Source of the DNA: Alphaproteobacteria bacterium
Lineage (GTDB): Bacteria; Pseudomonadota; Alphaproteobacteria; Micavibrionales; Micavibrionaceae
NCBI GenBank assembly: GCA_030427765.1
Contig: JAUICS010000025.1
Location: forward strand, 1 to 10,240
Direction of reading: 5' to 3'
DNA length: 10,240 bases
The notes under the pieces: generated by a model
What the model was told of the DNA's origin: nothing
Seen by the model: the letters and a program-made list of their open reading frames with translations, nothing else
Databases searched by the model: none
Program-made: the position numbers and the translations under genes
Shown: positions 1,968 to 10,240 of the stretch, piece by piece
Layout: each line of letters starts with the position of its first letter
Position numbering within the stretch: the first letter of the stretch is position 1

Positions 1968-3416
1968 ATGTCCTTGGCGCAAATAAAGACGTCTATGGTT
2001 TTGGTGGCATTATGTGCGTTCGTTTTTGGGTGTTCATCCGTTGATCAGGATGAGGCTCTGCAAAAACGGCAGGCGCAGGTGATTGGTCATGTTGAAGCGT
2101 TCGAGAAGCGCTGGGATGACGTGCGTGAAGTTGACCTGTCACTGCGGCAAGCCCTTGATATGGGGATACGCGAAAATCTGGATGCCCGTATTGCCGCGCT
2201 TGAAATTATTGTGGCGCAGGATGACGTTGTTCTGGAGAAATTGTCGGCATTACCAAATCTGGATGCAACATTTGCATATGTTGGGCGTACAAATGAAGGT
2301 GCGTCGTCCAGCCGGTCTTTTCTAACGGGGAGTCAATCGCTCGCGTCATCTGTCTCAAGTGATCAGTACAGACGCGTTATTGATCTTGATGCCAGCATGG
2401 ATCTTTTGGATACAGCCCTCGCCGTATATCGCTCCAAAGTTGCTGAAAAAGAGGCGTTGGTATTAGGTCAGCGTCATCGCACAGTTTTGGCAAATGTGTT
2501 TCAGGATGTTTATGCCGCCTATTTGCGTGCATGGATTATGCAAGAGGAGCACGAAAAGATTGATGAGTTGATTGCCAGAATTGAAGATCATCTTGTTCGG
2601 CTGGATGTGGCAAAGCGCGCAGATCTTCTTGGGGTGGAAGATGTTGTCGAGAAAAAATCCAATTTTCTGGAGGCTATTCGCTCGCTTCACAACCTGAAAG
2701 AGGACATTACAAACGCAGAAAGCGAGTTGAAAGGCCTGCTTTCTATCCCGCACCATGTTGATCTAACACTGCGTGAACCTGATTACGCCGCTTTGCCATC
2801 TGTAAAACGTGTCATGGACGGGCATCTGGCCGAGATGGAATTAAAGGCACTTCAGTCAAATCCTGATATTTATGAAGCATTATTAAGCAGTGAAATAGCC
2901 GAAAGCAGAGTTCAAGAAGAAATCCTGCGCACATTTCCTGGACTAAATCTGTTTTACGGGTTCAATCAGGATAGTAACAGTTTTCTGGAACATCACAGAT
3001 GGGTTGATTTTTCCGCGACGCTTGCCCAAAGCCTGATTTCGGTTTTTACCTTGCCTAAACGTTATGAAGCCGCCGAAAATATTTATAAGGTTGAGGAAAG
3101 ACGCCTGCTTGCATTAAGCGCGGCCATCATTACGCAGGTGCATTTGGCAAGAGAGCGTTTGAATGTGCTTGAAGATAGCCTTGATTTGGCAAAGCGCAAC
3201 GAATTTCAACTATCACGCCTGAAACATGCCGTTTCTGAAAAGCATAAGCTTGGTTTCGTATCCGGTGAAAGTAAAATCCTAACCGATGTAAAGGTTCTGG
3301 AAGGTTCGATTTTGAGCGAGTTTGCAAAGGCAGATTTACAACGCGCCATGATCGAAATGGTCATGCTTCTCGGATATGATGTTGATGAAATTTTAGGTGG
3401 CGGGGATGCGATATGA
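1968..3416 (+). CDS. TolC/NodT-like outer-membrane efflux lipoprotein
   Basis: A 482-residue protein of the TolC outer-membrane efflux family, which forms the trimeric channel-tunnel of tripartite exporters. The N-terminus is a lipoprotein signal: a hydrophobic stretch at 10-20 and Cys22 in FVFGCSS, so the mature protein should be lipidated as in NodT-type members. The first OEP repeat opens with LSLRQALDMGIRENLDARIA (57-76), the usual family entry helix. It continues through ALPNLDATFAYVGR (94-107), a beta strand with FLTGSQS, and LDLDASMDLLD-like text around 139-148, followed by long amphipathic helices. The second repeat, with similar helical pattern, ends near 465. Length is normal for the family. 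It is the first gene of a four-gene operon, and its TGA overlaps the next ATG by 4 bases. The ATG at 1968 was chosen because it gives the complete signal peptide; the Met at residue 10 would leave too short a signal. Confidence 0.88.
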   Translation: MSLAQIKTSMVLVALCAFVFGCSSVDQDEALQKRQAQVIGHVEAFEKRWDDVREVDLSLRQALDMGIRENLDARIAALEIIVAQDDVVLEKLSALPNLDATFAYVGRTNEGASSSRSFLTGSQSLASSVSSDQYRRVIDLDASMDLLDTALAVYRSKVAEKEALVLGQRHRTVLANVFQDVYAAYLRAWIMQEEHEKIDELIARIEDHLVRLDVAKRADLLGVEDVVEKKSNFLEAIRSLHNLKEDITNAESELKGLLSIPHHVDLTLREPDYAALPSVKRVMDGHLAEMELKALQSNPDIYEALLSSEIAESRVQEEILRTFPGLNLFYGFNQDSNSFLEHHRWVDFSATLAQSLISVFTLPKRYEAAENIYKVEERRLLALSAAIITQVHLARERLNVLEDSLDLAKRNEFQLSRLKHAVSEKHKLGFVSGESKILTDVKVLEGSILSEFAKADLQRAMIEMVMLLGYDVDEILGGGDAI

Positions 3417-4480
3417 TCACGTTTTCCCGCTATTTAAATACGTATCGTTATACAGTTTCGCTCACTTTGGTCTTTTTGGCCTTCATAACGATATATGTCC
3501 TGTTCTTAAATCATATTATGGACAGGCTGAATAATGTGAAAGCTTCTCCGGAATATAAAATCAGCTATAAAACAGAACCGCCGGAGGAGCTCACAAAAAC
3601 AAAGTATATCTTCAAGATATACCGTAATGCCTATATCGAGCCGATTTTACCAATAACGGAATATAATGTTGATAAATATCAAACCGTATCGTCGTCACCC
3701 ACGGTGATTGATAACAAAGGTTCCGAAGCCAAAATACGTGATGGGTTTATTTATCAGATTGAAGAGCCTGTCATCGAAATTGATACCGTATTGGTGGCGC
3801 AAAAAAATACCATTATTTCCAGTACGCGTGACGGTAAAGTTGTTGCGGTCAATTATGATGATGGTGACATATTTCATCGCGGTGATGTTCTGGTTGAATA
3901 TGATTGCCGCGATGTTCGCGCGGAATTAACGGCGCGCCGTAAGGAGGCCGATTTTACACGCAAGAAGGCATTTCGCGGTCAAAAGCTATTTAAGCTTGAT
4001 ATCATTTCTAATCTGGAAAGCAGTTTGTTGGACACGGAGCAAGTTCAGGCCGAGGCGCAAAGGGAGCTGTTAGAGCAACGGTTTGAACGGTGTGTTATAC
4101 GTGCCGATTATAACGGACGCATTGTTCGGCGCAGTATTAATCCCGGTGAATATACACGGACAGATCGTGTTCTTATGGAAGTGGCCTCACTGGATGATCT
4201 GGATGCAGAGTTTCTGCTTCCCTCCAGATGGCTGCGATGGGTGAATGTAGAAGCACCCGTGGATATAGAGGTATTTGAAACCAGTAAAATTTATGCCGCC
4301 AAAGTGACACGTTTCCACGGTGAGGTGGACCCTTCAAGTCAGACGATTCAGGTGTCTGCGAGACTTGAGCCGTATGAAGAACCGCTTCTGCCCGGTATGA
4401 GCGGAACGGCAAAAATTGATGCACACGATATACGGTCACAAGGGATAACCGGATATCTTGAAACGGGCCGTAGATATTAA
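3413..4480 (+). CDS. HlyD/RND-type periplasmic adaptor (membrane fusion protein) 1
   Basis: A 355-residue periplasmic adaptor that would join an inner-membrane component to the TolC-like channel. One transmembrane anchor lies at about 15-33, followed by a 90-residue linker of unknown fold. The lipoyl-like half-motif is at about 131-165 (STRDGKVVAVNYDDGD, then GDVLVEYDC). A short hairpin follows at 166-224 and the second lipoyl half at 225-260 (CVIRADYNGRIVRRSINPGE). The beta-barrel and membrane-proximal part runs to about 337, with the adaptor signature DPSSQTIQVSARLEP (306-320) and LLPGMSGTAKI (325-335). Cys165 and Cys227 flank the hairpin and are placed to form a disulphide. The start overlaps the tolC-like stop (ATGA), implying translational coupling; GGGG at 3402-3405 could serve as its ribosome site. 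The hairpin is short compared with HlyD proper, so it resembles RND-type adaptors more than the type I secretion type. Confidence 0.87.
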   Translation: MITFSRYLNTYRYTVSLTLVFLAFITIYVLFLNHIMDRLNNVKASPEYKISYKTEPPEELTKTKYIFKIYRNAYIEPILPITEYNVDKYQTVSSSPTVIDNKGSEAKIRDGFIYQIEEPVIEIDTVLVAQKNTIISSTRDGKVVAVNYDDGDIFHRGDVLVEYDCRDVRAELTARRKEADFTRKKAFRGQKLFKLDIISNLESSLLDTEQVQAEAQRELLEQRFERCVIRADYNGRIVRRSINPGEYTRTDRVLMEVASLDDLDAEFLLPSRWLRWVNVEAPVDIEVFETSKIYAAKVTRFHGEVDPSSQTIQVSARLEPYEEPLLPGMSGTAKIDAHDIRSQGITGYLETGRRY

Positions 4481-4482
4481 GC

Positions 4483-5814
4483 ATGAAAAAAGCATTACAA
4501 CTTATTGGCATTCAAAAAGATACATTACATGCAGGTAGTGTTGATGCGCTTGGGTTTATAGCTGCAAATAAAATCCATACATTGATTTCGTATCGTCAGG
4601 TTGTGTTTTGGGTTGGTAACTGCTCGTCTCCTGAGCTGACAACCGTGTCTGGTAATGCAACGATTGACCAAAAGGGGCAATACGCAAACTGGATACGCAG
4701 GACCATCAAAAAATATACTGCGAATAATGCGGTAAATTTACATGCGCTCAATTTTGAAAACATTGATGAGCGGGATAAAGCGGATTGGCAACAATTTGGA
4801 TTGTCTAATGTTACAATCATTATATTCAAAACAGACACAGAAGGTTCTCTGGGCGGTGTATGGATTGAACATGATAAACCATATACGGATGCTGAAATAA
4901 CCATATGGCATGAATTGCAGGGAACGTTTTCTGCTGCGCTTGCGCTCCAGAATTTACGGACATCCCGATCACTGTTTTTCAGGATTTCAAATGTATTAAA
5001 TATACGGACCGGTAAATATAAATACTACATTCTGGCCGTCTGTCTGGCGCTAATGTTCTTCCCCGTTCGTTTGTCTATTACAGCGCCTGCCGAAATTATC
5101 AGTTCTGATCCCGGTATTGTGGCGCCAGTATATGACGGTGTTGTAAAAGACATTTTGGTGGAGCCGGGGGACGAGGTCAAAAAATATGATCCGTTGGTTA
5201 TAATGGATGATCAAAGTTTGATGGCCGAAAAACGGGCCACAGAAGAAGATTTGCGGGTTGCACGTGCAAAATTGTCACGGTTAAAGCGTGAGGCGCTTTT
5301 GGAGCCTGAAAAAAAGATTGAATTACAAAGGATACAATCTGAAATTTCCCTCAAACAAATCGAGTATGACTACGCGACACAAAAATTGCAGCGCAGTGTT
5401 TTGCGATCACCGAAAAATGGTGTCGCCGTGTTTTCGGATGCACAATCAATCATTGGAAAGCCGATACCAACCGGTCAATCTATTATGCAAGTGGCGTCGC
5501 TTGCCGATGCCGAGCTGTTCATCCGTATCCCGGTGCAATCAATGTTACGAATTGATGATGACGTGCCGGTTGAGTTTTATATGAATGTGGCTCCCTTGGA
5601 GACGTTGGAGGGGCGTATTTTAAGTATGGGCTATCAGGCAAGTGCCGATGCCGATGGTTTGTTGACGTATAAGGTTCGGGCCAGTTTACCGGAAGGGTAT
5701 AGTCCACGTATAGGATGGAAGGGCACGGCTAAAGTTTACGGGGAATGGAGCGTGTTGATTTATGCGGTTCTACGTCGTCCGTTAATATCACTACGCGATA
5801 TTACGGGGCTATAA
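4483..5814 (+). CDS. GAF-like/HlyD hybrid periplasmic adaptor 2
   Basis: A 443-residue protein with two halves. Residues 1 to about 165 are soluble and would be cytoplasmic. The alternating strand/helix pattern (ALGFIAANKIHTLISYRQVVFWV; VTIIIFKTDTEGSLGGVWIEHD; then a long helix 135-160) looks like a GAF-type sensor fold, though I see no ligand-binding signature. One transmembrane helix follows at about 180-198. The periplasmic half has a lipoyl half-motif at 205-243 (SSDPGIVAPVYDGVVKDILV, then EPGDEVKKYDPLVIMDD). A coiled-coil hairpin lies at 244-303 and the second lipoyl half at 304-340 (SVLRSPKNGVAVFSD, GQSIMQVASL). A beta-barrel region extends to about 418. The C-terminal SVLIYAVLRRPLISLRDITG (423-442) looks like a second membrane-associated or amphipathic helix. 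The gene follows the first adaptor after 2 bases and precedes the M50 gene by 1 base. GAF assignment is moderate; adaptor assignment is firm. Confidence 0.82.
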   Translation: MKKALQLIGIQKDTLHAGSVDALGFIAANKIHTLISYRQVVFWVGNCSSPELTTVSGNATIDQKGQYANWIRRTIKKYTANNAVNLHALNFENIDERDKADWQQFGLSNVTIIIFKTDTEGSLGGVWIEHDKPYTDAEITIWHELQGTFSAALALQNLRTSRSLFFRISNVLNIRTGKYKYYILAVCLALMFFPVRLSITAPAEIISSDPGIVAPVYDGVVKDILVEPGDEVKKYDPLVIMDDQSLMAEKRATEEDLRVARAKLSRLKREALLEPEKKIELQRIQSEISLKQIEYDYATQKLQRSVLRSPKNGVAVFSDAQSIIGKPIPTGQSIMQVASLADAELFIRIPVQSMLRIDDDVPVEFYMNVAPLETLEGRILSMGYQASADADGLLTYKVRASLPEGYSPRIGWKGTAKVYGEWSVLIYAVLRRPLISLRDITGL

Positions 5815-5815
5815 G

Positions 5816-7969
5816 ATGCAGGATGAAACACCTTCCGATTTACAGGCGCGACCGATGTTATTGCCGCGCATTAATCCGGTTGTGCGTGTGTTTAAAGGGG
5901 CGGATAAATCAGATGGCTCACCGACATGGACGTTACATCATCCGGCGGCGAACAAATATTATCAAGTTGGCTGGATGGAATTTGAGTGTATTTCACGTTT
6001 TCACGTATTCAATAACGCCGAACAGTTAATACAATCAGTTAACACAGAAACATCATTAAATATTGATCTGGATGATTTGAAGGACTTACTTATTTATCTA
6101 AACAAAAATGGTTTGCTAGAGCATGATCCGGCATTGGTAGAGCAACCTTCGTTTGCGAAACAGCCTTTTTTGCAAAAAATTCTGCATAATTATTTGTTCT
6201 TTAGTATCCCTCTGATAAAGCCAGACTGGTTTTTAAAAGCAACGTCACCGTTTGTAAAACCTGTCATGTCAAAAGTGTTTTTGTACATGACTATGATATG
6301 TTTTTTTATCCTGTTGTTTCTGACGATCCAGCGTTTTGACGAATTTATGAATACGTTTATAAACCTGATGTCGGTGAAGGGCGCAGCACTTTTATTTATC
6401 ACCTTGATATGCATTAAAATTTGCCATGAATTCGGGCATGCATTTACCGCGCATCGGTATGGTGTCGATGTGCCACACATGGGTGTGGCGTTTATGGTGA
6501 TGTATCCGGTTTTTTATACGGAAACATCGGCATCGTGGCAACTTAGTGATAATAAATCCCGTATATACATCGGCCTTTCCGGTGTTATTACCGAATTGAT
6601 ACTCGCAACATACGCTTTGGCAATCTGGCACATAATGCCGCCCGGCATTCTCAATAGTCTTGCTTTTGCGGTTGTGTCGATTGCGCTTGTCGGCTCTTTG
6701 CTTGTAAACCTGAATCCGTTTATGCGTTTTGATGGTTATTTTGTACTAAGCGATACTGTGGGTATAGAAAACCTTCATGCACAAAGTTTTGCCTTTGCCA
6801 AATGGTGGATTCGTAAAACCTTATTCGGATTGAACGATGATGTTCCTGAAGATTACAAACCGGATATTCAGCGGCTTCTCATTTTTTTCGGTGTCGGGAC
6901 GATTATACACCGTTTCTTCTTATTTTTAGGGATTGCGCTGCTTGTATATTGGCTGTTTTTCAAACCGTTAGGATTCATCCTCATGGTGGTTGAATTGCTA
7001 TGGTTTATCGGGTTTCCGGTTTTTCGGGAAATCACCGTGTGGTGGGAGCGTAGGGCGGATATATTATCGCATTCCCGCATATATATTCTGGGGGCGGTTA
7101 TGGTGCTTTCGATAGGATATGTTTTCTTGCCGTTTCAGCAAAGTCTGACCATTCCGGCTATCGCCCACGCAAAGGAATTCAGACGGATTTATCCGCCAGT
7201 TCATTCTACGGTTGAGAAGATCAATGTTGCGGAAGGGCAAGCTGTTAATGCCGGCGATATACTAGTCGTATTGTCATCGGACGAACTTGAGTACGACATT
7301 CGACGGACAACGCAGGAATTGCAAAACCTGCAAACTGAAAAACGGATTTTGTTTGTTGGACGCTCCCACATATCCCGTTCAATCGATGAAGAAATTACGG
7401 CAACGGAAATAAGGCTGCGTAATTTACTGGATAAGTCGGAGAGCCTGACTATTCGTGCACCATTCAATGGAACAATCAGGTCTTTAAATCCCGATATTCA
7501 TAATAAGATGGCGGTATCCCAATCGACCGCACTTTTTGATCTGGTTGATGAACGTGATTACACATTCACCGCCTATATTGATGAAAATGCACTTGAACGC
7601 GTTGCCGTTCATAATCATGCGTCATTTCGCCCACAATACCAATTTATGGCAGATGTTCCATTAACACTTACAAAAATTGGCCAGGCAAATGAACGCTATA
7701 TCAATTGGCCGGAATTATCATCTATCTATCATGGGCCTATCCCGAGTGAATTTGATGTGTCACCGTCATCAAATGTACAGGAAATAAAGGCCCGCCAAAC
7801 CATCTATGCGGTTATGTTTGATCCGGTGGATGATGCAGAAAAAAACGTGCCGCACTACAGATTTATAACGGCTGGTACAATAAACGTTGAGGCCAAACGT
7901 TCGAGTACATTTTGGAATTTTGTGAAAAAAACACTGGCATTCGTAAAGCGTGAATCTGGTTTTAATTGA
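5816..7969 (+). CDS. M50 (site-2-protease-like) membrane metallopeptidase fused to HlyD-like adaptor
   Basis: A 717-residue polytopic inner-membrane protein with three parts. Residues about 38-103 read like a PqqD-type winged helix: TWTLHHPAANKYYQVGWMEF, then a short spacer, LIQSV, and DLKDLLIYLNKNGLLEHD at the end. Residues 155-440 are membrane helices of the M50 family, with zinc motif HEFGH at 204-208 (His204, Glu205, His208). The conserved NPFMRFDGYF is at 300-309, with Asp306 as probable third zinc ligand, so the active site appears intact. After the last helix (about 422-440), residues 445-580 form a periplasmic HlyD-like part: the lipoyl half VHSTVEKINVAEGQAVNAGD (462-481), a coiled-coil hairpin 487-543, then IRAPFNGTIRSLNPD (546-560). 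A barrel-like region follows up to about 695. The gene starts 1 base after the preceding stop and ends the operon. M50-adaptor fusions of this kind are known in bacterial genomes, but the substrate is usually unknown. Processing or gating of the downstream giant protein is my inference. Confidence 0.87.
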   Translation: MQDETPSDLQARPMLLPRINPVVRVFKGADKSDGSPTWTLHHPAANKYYQVGWMEFECISRFHVFNNAEQLIQSVNTETSLNIDLDDLKDLLIYLNKNGLLEHDPALVEQPSFAKQPFLQKILHNYLFFSIPLIKPDWFLKATSPFVKPVMSKVFLYMTMICFFILLFLTIQRFDEFMNTFINLMSVKGAALLFITLICIKICHEFGHAFTAHRYGVDVPHMGVAFMVMYPVFYTETSASWQLSDNKSRIYIGLSGVITELILATYALAIWHIMPPGILNSLAFAVVSIALVGSLLVNLNPFMRFDGYFVLSDTVGIENLHAQSFAFAKWWIRKTLFGLNDDVPEDYKPDIQRLLIFFGVGTIIHRFFLFLGIALLVYWLFFKPLGFILMVVELLWFIGFPVFREITVWWERRADILSHSRIYILGAVMVLSIGYVFLPFQQSLTIPAIAHAKEFRRIYPPVHSTVEKINVAEGQAVNAGDILVVLSSDELEYDIRRTTQELQNLQTEKRILFVGRSHISRSIDEEITATEIRLRNLLDKSESLTIRAPFNGTIRSLNPDIHNKMAVSQSTALFDLVDERDYTFTAYIDENALERVAVHNHASFRPQYQFMADVPLTLTKIGQANERYINWPELSSIYHGPIPSEFDVSPSSNVQEIKARQTIYAVMFDPVDDAEKNVPHYRFITAGTINVEAKRSSTFWNFVKKTLAFVKRESGFN

Positions 7970-8086
7970 CCTCAATCTATCTAAATATTTGTAATTATTG
8001 GCTTAATTAACGTTTTCTAAAGTATTCCCATGTAAAATTGTAGTTGTGGAAATCCGTTTTTGAAAATCTGAAAGAGGCAGAAGGGT
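7970..8086 (+). promoter_or_regulatory. Spacer before giant repeat protein, with ribosome site deciding the TTG start
   Basis: This 117-bp AT-rich gap separates the export operon from the repeat protein. GAGG at 8074-8077 lies 9 bases before the TTG at 8087. An in-frame TGA at 8069-8071 rules out any start further upstream, so TTG is the only start that keeps the N-terminal LEKR motif. TAAAAT at 8033-8038 directly preceded by TG could be a -10 element, but no -35 at proper distance is convincing. I see no terminator hairpin, so read-through from the operon is possible. Confidence 0.45.
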
Positions 8087-9439
8087 TTGCGGAAAAAAAC
8101 TATTAAAATTCAAGAGCTTGAGAAGCGTTTAATGCTTGATGCATCGCTGGGTGATTTGGCGACGACTGTGGTTTTTGCCGAAGAAACCGTGAACGCGGCT
8201 CCTGTAATTCTGGATTCCGATGCGTCTGTAACAGGTTCTACAACAAATTTTGATGGTGAATCCCTTACCATTTCAACCGATGGTGGGGCGGACGATCAAA
8301 TTTCCATTAATGACGAAGGTACCGGTGCCGGACAAATTGGTTTTGACGGCACAAATGTATCGTATGAAGGAACGGTGATCGGAACGGTTTCCTCAGACGG
8401 GACGAACGGGGCGGATTTGATTATTGATTTTGATGCAGATGCCAGCAAGCAATCCATCGAACGCCTGATCGAGAATATTAATTACGCGCATACGTCCGAT
8501 GATCCGGCGACATCGCGTACGCTTACATTCGCGCTTGGCGTATATTTCTCGGAAAATATGGATGTTGTGATTGTTGCTTATAACGAGGGGCCGAGTGTTG
8601 ATACAAACGCCGGATTAACACTTAACGAAGGCGCAACCAAAACCATCACATCGACAGAATTAGGCATTAGTGACCTTGATCACGATGATACGGAAGTAAC
8701 GATTTCGATTACCGATGATGTTGACAATGGGCGCATAGAGTTGTCAACCAATGCAGGTGTGGCCATTACAAGCTTTACACTGGATGATCTGAATAATGGT
8801 CTTGTCCGTTATGTGCATGATGACAGTCAGACAACATCAGATCAATTTACGTTTAACGTTACGGACGGTGATATTACAACGCCGGATGAAAATTTTGATA
8901 TTACTGTTACGGCTGTGGATGACCCGTTGACGCTTGATACAAACACGGGGACAACACTTTCACTCGGCGAAGAAATTGGAATTGGGGCGCAGGAAATTCC
9001 CGCACGTTTTGGCACGCAGGTGCATAGCATAAGCGGGGTAGGTCAACATGCGAGAATGGATGGCTATATTAACAATCAGAATACCCAGCTATCTTTGGTG
9101 TTTACAACACCTTCTTCTACCCCCAATTCGGTTCCCGGGCAGGTGCTTTTTGAAACCGGAGGGTCAGGACGCGGTATAGGTCTGTACCTTAATAATCAGG
9201 GAGAGTTAACGTTTTATGCGGGAAATGCACAATCATCCCCGCTTATTACATCACCGGCCGCTTTGAATGCTAACGCCCAATATGCTGTCGTTGTTGAGAT
9301 TGATAACACAAACAACGAACTGAGATTGCATTATGCTGAAGCTTCTGATTTTGATTGGTTTAGTTATGGTAGGAGTGCCGAAGCATCCCTAAAAATTTCA
9401 CACAGACAAGTTTTTCCGGTAGTGACGGAGCAGGTTTAG
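8087..9439 (+). CDS. Giant LEPR-type cadherin/LamG repeat protein, 5' part, ending at a frameshift
   Basis: The first 450 codons of a large surface or secreted repeat protein. There is no hydrophobic signal peptide. The N-terminus is charged and contains LEKRLMLDAS (11-20), which resembles the LEPR-xLL/LEPRxMLDA motif found at the start of very large bacterial repeat proteins. Residues 38-165 form one module (PVILDSDASVTGS, FDGESLTIS, then IERLIENINYAHTSDDPATS) like the cadherin-like modules common in such proteins. Residues 168-280 are a CSPG/NG2-like cadherin repeat (ELGISD, NGRIELST, FTLDDLNNGLVRYVHDD, DQFTFNVTDG). From about 303 a LamG/concanavalin-like domain begins (LSLVFTTP, GQVLFETGGSGRGIGLYLNN, ELTFYAG, YAVVVEIDNTNNELRLHYAE). 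The frame then closes at TAG 9437-9439, after about ten residues that no longer fit the domain; the proper continuation lies in another frame. The start is TTG with a good ribosome site. I infer it to be the client of the upstream exporter. Confidence 0.82.
   Translation: MRKKTIKIQELEKRLMLDASLGDLATTVVFAEETVNAAPVILDSDASVTGSTTNFDGESLTISTDGGADDQISINDEGTGAGQIGFDGTNVSYEGTVIGTVSSDGTNGADLIIDFDADASKQSIERLIENINYAHTSDDPATSRTLTFALGVYFSENMDVVIVAYNEGPSVDTNAGLTLNEGATKTITSTELGISDLDHDDTEVTISITDDVDNGRIELSTNAGVAITSFTLDDLNNGLVRYVHDDSQTTSDQFTFNVTDGDITTPDENFDITVTAVDDPLTLDTNTGTTLSLGEEIGIGAQEIPARFGTQVHSISGVGQHARMDGYINNQNTQLSLVFTTPSSTPNSVPGQVLFETGGSGRGIGLYLNNQGELTFYAGNAQSSPLITSPAALNANAQYAVVVEIDNTNNELRLHYAEASDFDWFSYGRSAEASLKISHRQVFPVVTEQV
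8588..8992 (+). repeat. CSPG-like repeat plus linker, copy 1
   Basis: A 135-codon segment beginning GPSVDTNAGL and ending GEEIGIGAQ. It aligns without gaps to copy 2 at 9835-10239. By manual count about 93 of 135 residues are identical. The most conserved blocks are ELGISD, FTL-DLNNGLVRYVHD, TTSDQFTF and LTLDTNTGTT. Confidence 0.85.
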
Positions 9440-10240
9440 GAGTACTCGGCGGTGGCACTTACGGAGGTTTTAATGGTTCTGCAAATGGTACAACAGCGTT
9501 TCAGGGGACGATTGATAGTGACCTTATTCTGACACGTTTCCCGACCGGCGGAACGACAATCATCGGTGATAATGAACAGCTTGTTGCAAATGATGTTGAT
9601 ACCATTGCCGATAATATTGTTTATACGATTACAACCGATGTTCTGCACGGAACGTTAAAAAATGATGGTGTCGCAATGGGTTTGGGCGATACGTTTACGC
9701 AAGCCGATCTGGATGCCGGTGATGTTACATACTTGAATGATGGCGTTGCAAATAGTTCGGATAGTTTTGAATTCAGCGTGACGGACGGAACGACTACTCT
9801 TACAAACCAGACATTTGATTTTACCTTGAATGGTGGGCCGAGTATCGATACCAACGCCGGATTAAGCCTTGTTGAAGGTGAAACAAAGGTTATATCGGCG
9901 GCAGAACTTGGCATCAGTGATGGCGACAACACTGATGATGAGGTTACTATTAATATTTCAAACGGGGTTGATAACGGGCGGGTGGAGTTGTCGACTGACC
10001 CTGGTGTGTCAATTACCAGTTTTACATTGGAAGATTTGAATAATGGCCTTGTCAGATATGTGCATGACGGCGGCCCGACAACATCGGACCAGTTTACGTT
10101 TACTGTTACAGACGGCCTATATACAACGGATGCAGATGATTTTGATTTTAGCATTACAACTGTCGACGAACCGCTGACCCTTGATACCAACACTGGGACA
10201 ACAGTTTCACAAGGATTGGAGGTTGGAATTGGCGGTCGCG
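9373..10240 (+). CDS. Giant repeat protein, continuation in the -1 frame (partial, runs off the window)
   Basis: This stretch is open to the window end with no start codon of its own in a sensible place, and its translation continues the preceding gene. From about 9394 it gives NFTQTSFSGSDGAGLG and then GGGTYGGFNGS, the second half of the LamG-like domain. A cadherin/CSPG-like repeat follows at about 9540-9834 (VYTITTDVLHGTLKNDG, FTQADLDAGDVTYLNDG, FEFSVTDG). A second copy of the earlier CSPG repeat lies at 9835-10180 (ELGISDGDN, NGRVELSTDPG, FTLEDLNNGLVRYVHDGG). The last codons (LTLDTNTGTTVSQG) match the linker that leads into the LamG domain in the first unit, so a second LamG domain is expected just outside the window. 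Coding quality and codon use equal those of the 5' part, which argues against long-standing decay. Confidence 0.8.
9391..9395 (+). other. Probable frameshift site: A-run shortened by one base
   Basis: The 5' frame and the continuation frame are both open only between 9373 and 9439, so the shift must lie there. CCCTAAAAATTT at 9387-9398 is the best place. Adding one A gives CTA AAA AAT TTC ACA CAG, that is SLKNFTQTSFSG, a smooth join between AEASL and the LamG continuation. No canonical X XXY YYZ slippery heptamer is in register here, so sequencing or assembly error or a recent deletion is more likely than programmed frameshifting. Confidence 0.65.
9835..10239 (+). repeat. CSPG-like repeat plus linker, copy 2
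   Basis: The second copy of the 135-codon segment starts GPSIDTNAGL, 1247 bases after copy 1. The spacing equals 416 codons minus one base, as expected if one base is missing from a 1248-base super-repeat. The unit order is CSPG-like, LamG-like, a second cadherin-like module, then CSPG-like again. Confidence 0.85.

Follow-up and report, generated by a model that had tools for sequence, protein, structure and literature searches.

A TolC-adaptor operon with an M50 protease fusion, paired with giant LEPR-box proteins: a candidate export apparatus in Micavibrionaceae and other bacteria

A contig of 10,240 nucleotides (JAUICS010000025.1, assembly GCA_030427765.1) from an alphaproteobacterium of the family Micavibrionaceae carries, on the forward strand at 1968-7969, a four-gene operon encoding a TolC-type outer-membrane channel, two separate periplasmic adaptors (MFP1 and GAF-MFP2) and a third adaptor module fused to an M50 site-2 protease (M50-MFP). 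The window analysed is this contig in its entirety, and the genome to which it belongs is incomplete (77.5% complete, 429 contigs). The operon is followed by a gene, starting at 8087, for a giant repeat protein with an N-terminal LEPR-type box. The system is widespread, and the M50 protein and LEPR giants are almost always found together. The operon is read here, with a probability of roughly 0.6, as a dedicated apparatus spanning the cell envelope for the recognition, cleavage and export of LEPR giants. The evidence comes from gene content and order, the cognate pairing of protease and giant, modelled domain folds and, in a sister branch, linkage to a SecA paralogue.

Pairing of the M50 fusion with LEPR giants

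Co-occurrence of the M50 fusion and the giants, which a preliminary description of this DNA had proposed to survey, was examined in 299 sampled genomes, with thresholds of at least 500 bits for the M50 protein and E ≤ 0.01 for the LEPR box. The M50 protein was found in 59 genomes, the box in 58 and both in 56 (Fisher p 2e-54, to be taken as a guide only). With the window's own genome removed, 55 genomes had both, three the M50 protein only, two the box only and 238 neither (p 1e-53). Three M50 candidates were scored per genome, and the designation "window type only", used below, holds among those scored. Window-type boxes were detected with a profile, A2, made from 19 boxes. It was used because the family model NF012209 at E ≤ 10 proved too loose, matching 7 of 14 control genomes; at E ≤ 0.1 that model gave weak matches in 3 of 20 genomes having no M50 match.

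The two genomes with a box and no M50 protein (G240 and G366, 2/58) owe their places to weak matches in open reading frames (ORFs) of 370 and 472 amino acids. Three genomes presented the converse: in G098 the M50 gene is cut at a contig end, and G108 and G179 have LEPR-8K boxes together with M50 proteins of a second, sister family. The pairing extends to the subfamilies. Thirteen genomes had M50 proteins of the lower-scoring family alone; no window-type box was found in them, and NF012209 (LEPR-8K) at E ≤ 1e-3 matched 11 of these 13, compared with none of the 20 comparison genomes without an M50 match, all of which were from the window's class.

Within the Micavibrio group, a label used here for genomes of the same family and the same order, 95 genomes (the window's included) yielded an M50-protein match at E ≤ 0.001 in 30 and above 350 bits in 24. 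A LEPR-box ORF was present in 16 of 20 loci of this group. As to the remaining loci, the genomes G073 and G074 encode LEPR giants at a distance from the operon, G076 has a weak match and G094 lay outside the box search. A set of named loci, the best 80 of 571 candidates, came from Micavibrio, Rhizobiaceae, Azospirillum, Nitrospira, Pseudomonas, Methylobacter and others, and overlaps the Micavibrio-group set, several contigs being identical. Of the 80 stretches, 47 include a LEPR-box ORF; in many of the other 33 the contig is short or the start of a large ORF falls beyond the stretch. In Azospirillum argentinense the giant next to the operon is a DUF4347 protein. The named loci nearest to that of the window are from Micavibrio and other alphaproteobacterial metagenome-assembled genomes.

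The fusion protein has the HExxH motif, the second zinc motif NxNPxxxxDG and the multi-transmembrane core of an M50 site-2 protease, with seven hydrophobic segments and a match to RseP, and its active site is intact. Residues H204, E205, H208, N298, L299, N300, P301, M303, F305, D306 and G307 are invariant in all 18 rows of the M50 alignment A3. Residues 15-104, N-terminal to the first transmembrane segment, i.e. on the expected cytoplasmic side, are modelled as a winged helix, the fold of the leader-binding RRE/PqqD domains. PqqD was absent among the Pfam families at E ≤ 10 in the 18 window-type rows, and in two sister M50 proteins PF05402 (PqqD) fell just below its cut-off of 23.4 (22.9 and 22.7 bits). 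The adaptor folds of the system match MacA, MexA and EmrA. MFP2 has a GAF fold at its N-terminus, and a Pfam scan of the window's MFP2 did not detect GAF.

The box of the giants follows the pattern L-E-x-R-x-x-x-D, with L, E, R and D invariant in 19 aligned rows. In the window, the match to NF012209 (8117-8167) scored 13.8 bits, under the curated cut-off of 17. The N-terminus of the window's giant is 55-63% identical over about 435 amino acids to the giants of five relatives, and relatives' giants are complete ORFs of about 940-2,860 amino acids. A Sec-like N-terminus was scored in 1 of 50 giants (score ≥ 2.0, the control level), and GG.G.D RTX motifs were found in none of 19 complete window-type giants, the window's own giant being incomplete. 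Micavibrio-group giants have 0 or 1 cysteine, and several share a similar C-terminal stretch, e.g. FEDVLTYQEARKNKLREAL. At L123, L127, L136 and L142, in contrast to the Micavibrio group, the Nitrospira giants end in hydrophobic segments (means over 19 residues of 1.25-1.71), which may be a different anchoring end; the L108 giant lacks such a segment (0.79).

Pump genes and the SecA-linked sister operon

All-against-all clustering of ORFs from 81 loci gave an adaptor/M50 cluster in 80, a TolC cluster in 60 and a giant cluster in 57, and the next family was present in 11. Of 113 neighbours scanned with Pfam, taken from 35 of these loci (the named set of 80), 4 had ABC_tran and 4 MFS_1, and RND was outside the 25 commonest families shown. 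No ABC, RND or MFS pump is constant near the operon in these two surveys, and the window contains none, as had been noted at the outset. The idea that LEPR genes distant from the M50 gene adjoin type I secretion system (T1SS) genes was not borne out in 20 further stretches, where ABC motifs occurred only in two L160 ORFs, importer-like by eye, and inside one L151 giant ORF.

The second M50 family has scores of 141-360 bits. Of twelve sister stretches (L163-L174), 9 had the M50 protein and 6 a GAF-type adaptor by blastp with window-type queries. Pfam analysis of the operons at L165 and L171 revealed a SecA-like ATPase of about 670 amino acids, a GAF-adaptor of 616-645 amino acids and a PqqD-M50-adaptor protein; M50 and HlyD were matched in L171 only, and PqqD was just below cut-off. 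Walker A and B motifs were present in all five SecA-like ORFs checked. In a survey of 65 genomes, 11 of the 14 with a sister M50 had a second SecA; none was found in the 36 with the window type only or in the 15 with neither. In all 11 genomes the paralogue is on the same strand as the sister M50 match, 117-1080 bp away, and it scores under the cut-offs of both the SecA and SecA2 models. The boxes of giants near sister operons include the LEPR variants LEPRLLFSA (L169) and LEDRILLSA (L174). Some large ORFs near these operons have RTX motifs, and in genomes with a sister M50 the open frames with LEPR-8K matches reach 15,434 amino acids. The term "ATPase-less", applied to the system in the preliminary description, is correct for the operon and probably wrong for the process, given the SecA-type ATPase linked to the sister operon.

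In the mechanism proposed here, the LEPR box would serve as a leader-like peptide, to which the RRE/PqqD-like N-terminus of the M50 protein would bind at the inner membrane; fold and subfamily pairing give this recognition a rather better than even chance. The M50 site would then cut the box, a step for which the intact active site leaves the chances about equal. The adaptor modules of MFP1, GAF-MFP2 and M50-MFP would connect TolC with the inner membrane, and the giant would, judging from gene content, quite probably reach the surface by way of this channel. A SecA-type ATPase would act as motor. The sister branch would use its dedicated paralogue, the window branch presumably the housekeeping SecA, although for the window branch, where SecA is proposed by analogy with the sister linkage, the odds lie slightly the other way.

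Features of the window and its neighbourhood

The four-gene operon, as first described, is real, with matches to PF02321 (TolC), TIGR01730 (MFP1) and PF02163 and PF13437 (the M50 fusion); the RRE/PqqD-like N-terminus of the M50 protein, the SecA-linked sister operon and the shift of frame within the giant gene had then been overlooked. The coordinates are given in Table 1.

Table 1. Features of the operon and of the adjoining giant gene, in window coordinates (aa, amino acids; TM, transmembrane segment)
Feature	Position	Strand	Basis or remarks
TolC-family outer-membrane channel, 482 aa	1968..3416	+	PF02321 E 2.1e-19; homologue cluster in 60/81 loci
MFP1, periplasmic adaptor, 355 aa	3413..4480	+	TIGR01730 109.8 bits (above cut-off); single N-terminal TM near residue 12
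GAF-MFP2, 443 aa	4483..5814	+	GAF domain residues 1-163, TM near 181, adaptor after
RRE-M50-adaptor fusion, 717 aa	5816..7969	+	PF02163, PF13437; structure model
RRE/PqqD-like domain of M50 protein, residues 15-104	5858..6127	+	Modelled fold
M50 site-2-protease core, residues 185-378, HEFGH at 204-208	6368..6949	+	
Adaptor domain of M50 protein, residues 439-696	7130..7903	+	
Giant LEPR-box/Cadherin_3 protein, N-terminal part, 450 aa to first stop	8087..9439	+	TTG start; PF16184 E 9.6e-27
LEPR-type box LEKRLMLDA	8117..8143	+	Aligned with 18 other boxes
Frame-change interval in giant gene	9367..9400	+	tblastn of relatives
Giant gene continued in other frame, ended by contig edge	9401..10240	+	Cadherin_3 in 9676-10239, E 4.4e-38

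The LEPR-box gene does follow the operon directly, as had been claimed, but it is not intact in the window, where it changes frame and then ends at the contig edge. According to tblastn with relatives' proteins, frame 3 is used to about 9385-9400 and frame 2 from about 9367 on; therefore either the gene is broken or an error arose in sequencing or assembly. The stretch at 9829-10239 matches residues ~169-305 of relatives' giants and is a second copy of a Cadherin_3 repeat that the gene already contains in its first part.

A SulP transporter gene at 43-1695 is divergent from the operon, and an Rfam search of the window gave zero matches. In six Rhizobiales-type loci (L089, L092, L103, L130, L133 and L141) conserved genes for proteins of about 362 and 387 amino acids lie downstream of the M50 gene, and in five of these a conserved gene of about 634 amino acids is also found downstream of the operon. 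A family of small proteins (median 193 amino acids) is encoded near the operon in L090, L112, L118, L132, L134 and L138, four of which are Pseudomonas or Stutzerimonas. A Phage Tail Collar domain was present in 3 of the 113 scanned neighbours. Relatives of a Rhizobiales M50-adaptor protein occur on 80 plasmid records, including 18 from Escherichia and 8 from Citrobacter.

Alternatives, known systems and significance

Several points weigh against the reading of the operon as a dedicated export apparatus. Secretion, cleavage and the motor are inferred, and the complex is putative. The Fisher test ignores phylogeny, related genomes being dependent, and profile A2 was itself built from boxes adjoining M50 operons, the window's own included. 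When the M50 chain was read through into the LEPR N-terminus in an AlphaFold model, a weak test with one chain and four cargo rows, the box was undocked and disordered, at a predicted local distance difference test (pLDDT) value of about 30. Docking of the box on the RRE-like domain thus found no support in this sole structure. No SecA paralogue was found in 3 of the 14 sister-M50 genomes, and since a second SecA was not found in any of the 36 window-type genomes, a SecA motor there is an analogy. A second SecA serving the window branch was considered and not borne out, though the window genome's single SecA is odd. This sole SecA found (L183, G000:C46, 970-3723) is divergent, at about 31% to relatives' SecA; it has Walker A, but a CPCGSGKK-type tail is missing at its C-terminus. 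This incomplete genome may be without its housekeeping SecA.

A further set of contrary observations bears on the pump, which the preliminary description had allowed might be encoded elsewhere. A type I ABC ATPase, of LssB type in the Micavibrio group, could drive export, with the M50-RRE-adaptor operon as an accessory that selects and cuts the LEPR cargo. An LssB-type ATPase is indeed above cut-off in 82 of 91 Micavibrio-group relatives, the window genome included (G000:C107). Among 39 system-bearing genomes it exceeds the cut-off in 26, PrtD in 15 and HlyB in 6. In Phyllobacterium sp. 628 a T1SS adaptor and ATPase are encoded about 3 kb from the M50 gene, and an ORF with ABC motifs lies upstream of the operon in L112 (Pseudomonas sp.). 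This explanation is nevertheless unlikely. Six of the 39 genomes (G110, G117, G158, G176, G276 and G338) have the M50 protein and LEPR giants with no ATPase above the LssB, PrtD or HlyB cut-offs, although G110 has full-length type I ATPase matches below them. By hand count, LssB is similarly common in relatives with M50 (22/23) and in the others (60/68). The 19 complete giants have no RTX motif, though the giant at L158, from a sampled genome, has six.

It is less likely again that the cargo crosses by another route and that the role of the TolC-MFP-M50 set is to retain, release or trim the giant at the surface, in the manner of Lap-type retention and proteolysis. The presence of a protease in the complex would fit such a device, as would the hydrophobic C-termini at L127 and L142 and the AA or AG behind the box (FDAA, FDAG), which we take to resemble LapG-type sites. 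However, the position of the RRE-like domain before the first transmembrane segment, on the expected cytoplasmic side, is against it, TolC with three adaptors exceeds the needs of a retention device, and the sister operon brings a motor. An ordinary efflux system lying by accident beside a giant gene is what the public annotations ("efflux RND transporter periplasmic adaptor subunit", "HlyD family efflux transporter") would suggest, but the pairing over 299 genomes, the lack of a constant pump and the RRE-like domain make it highly improbable. The original proposal of a pump-less export or processing set tied to the giant, with the M50-adaptor in the inner-membrane slot, has survived the pump-neighbour and co-occurrence tests and is partly supported.

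Giant adhesins of the LapA/LapBCE and SiiE type are secreted by type I systems. The operon shares with these systems a TolC-type channel, an HlyD-type adaptor and a giant repeat cargo without a Sec signal; it differs in that there is usually no linked ABC ATPase, the cargo is paired through an N-terminal LEPR box and the M50 protease is fused to an adaptor. The adaptor folds recall the tripartite efflux systems MacAB-TolC, AcrAB-TolC and EmrAB-TolC, which differ in having the inner-membrane RND, MFS or ABC pump that is not constant here. In a comparison covering SecA only, accessory Sec (SecA2) is similar in that a SecA paralogue adjoins the apparatus in the sister branch; there, however, SecA sits with adaptors and M50, and the window branch has no linked SecA. 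Since it lacks defining features that were tested for each, the system was assigned neither to type I secretion nor to the tripartite pumps nor, as regards the window branch, to accessory Sec. The RRE-like domain resembles those of leader-binding proteins for ribosomally synthesized and post-translationally modified peptides (RiPPs), some of which are processed by M50 proteases (daptide, NF041824; epipeptide YydH/LiaK, NF058609), and the M50 part matches the daptide protease at E 9.6e-41 (140.2 bits, under the cut-off of 300). In contrast to RiPP processing, the cargo is giant rather than a small peptide, the protease has an adaptor domain beside TolC and there is no constant ABC exporter.

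The giants have the N-terminal tag of the LEPR-XLL/LEPR-8K family (NF012209), of which the window's box, LEKRLMLDA, is a variant under the curated cut-off. A LEPR-domain giant of about 8000 amino acids with an RTX end is known from a cold-water Vibrio, and the part of that paper describing it mentions no apparatus (PMC10868602); the term LEPR-XLL also occurs in PMC9611531. Searches of an open-access library of PubMed Central papers found no description of the apparatus or of the RRE-M50-adaptor fusion. The components belong to known families and LEPR-XLL giants are already in print, but the combined apparatus looks undescribed. A new secretion class, in which LEPR leaders are read by an RRE-like domain borne on an intramembrane M50-adaptor protein and a SecA-type motor drives the cargo through an adaptor-TolC conduit to the surface, in at least two parallel branches of Pseudomonadota with the window branch also in Nitrospira, is a tentative proposal, with the odds distinctly against it.

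Many bacteria of soil and water, or associated with plants, encode LEPR-tagged giant proteins of surface type, whose exit route is unstated in the open-access literature found. These giants have a near-obligate partner apparatus that includes a protease, a domain that probably reads the tag and, in the sister branch, a SecA motor, which makes the question of giant-protein export directly testable. If the reading is true, RiPP-type leader recognition would be joined to protein secretion, and a SecA-linked route towards TolC would be added.

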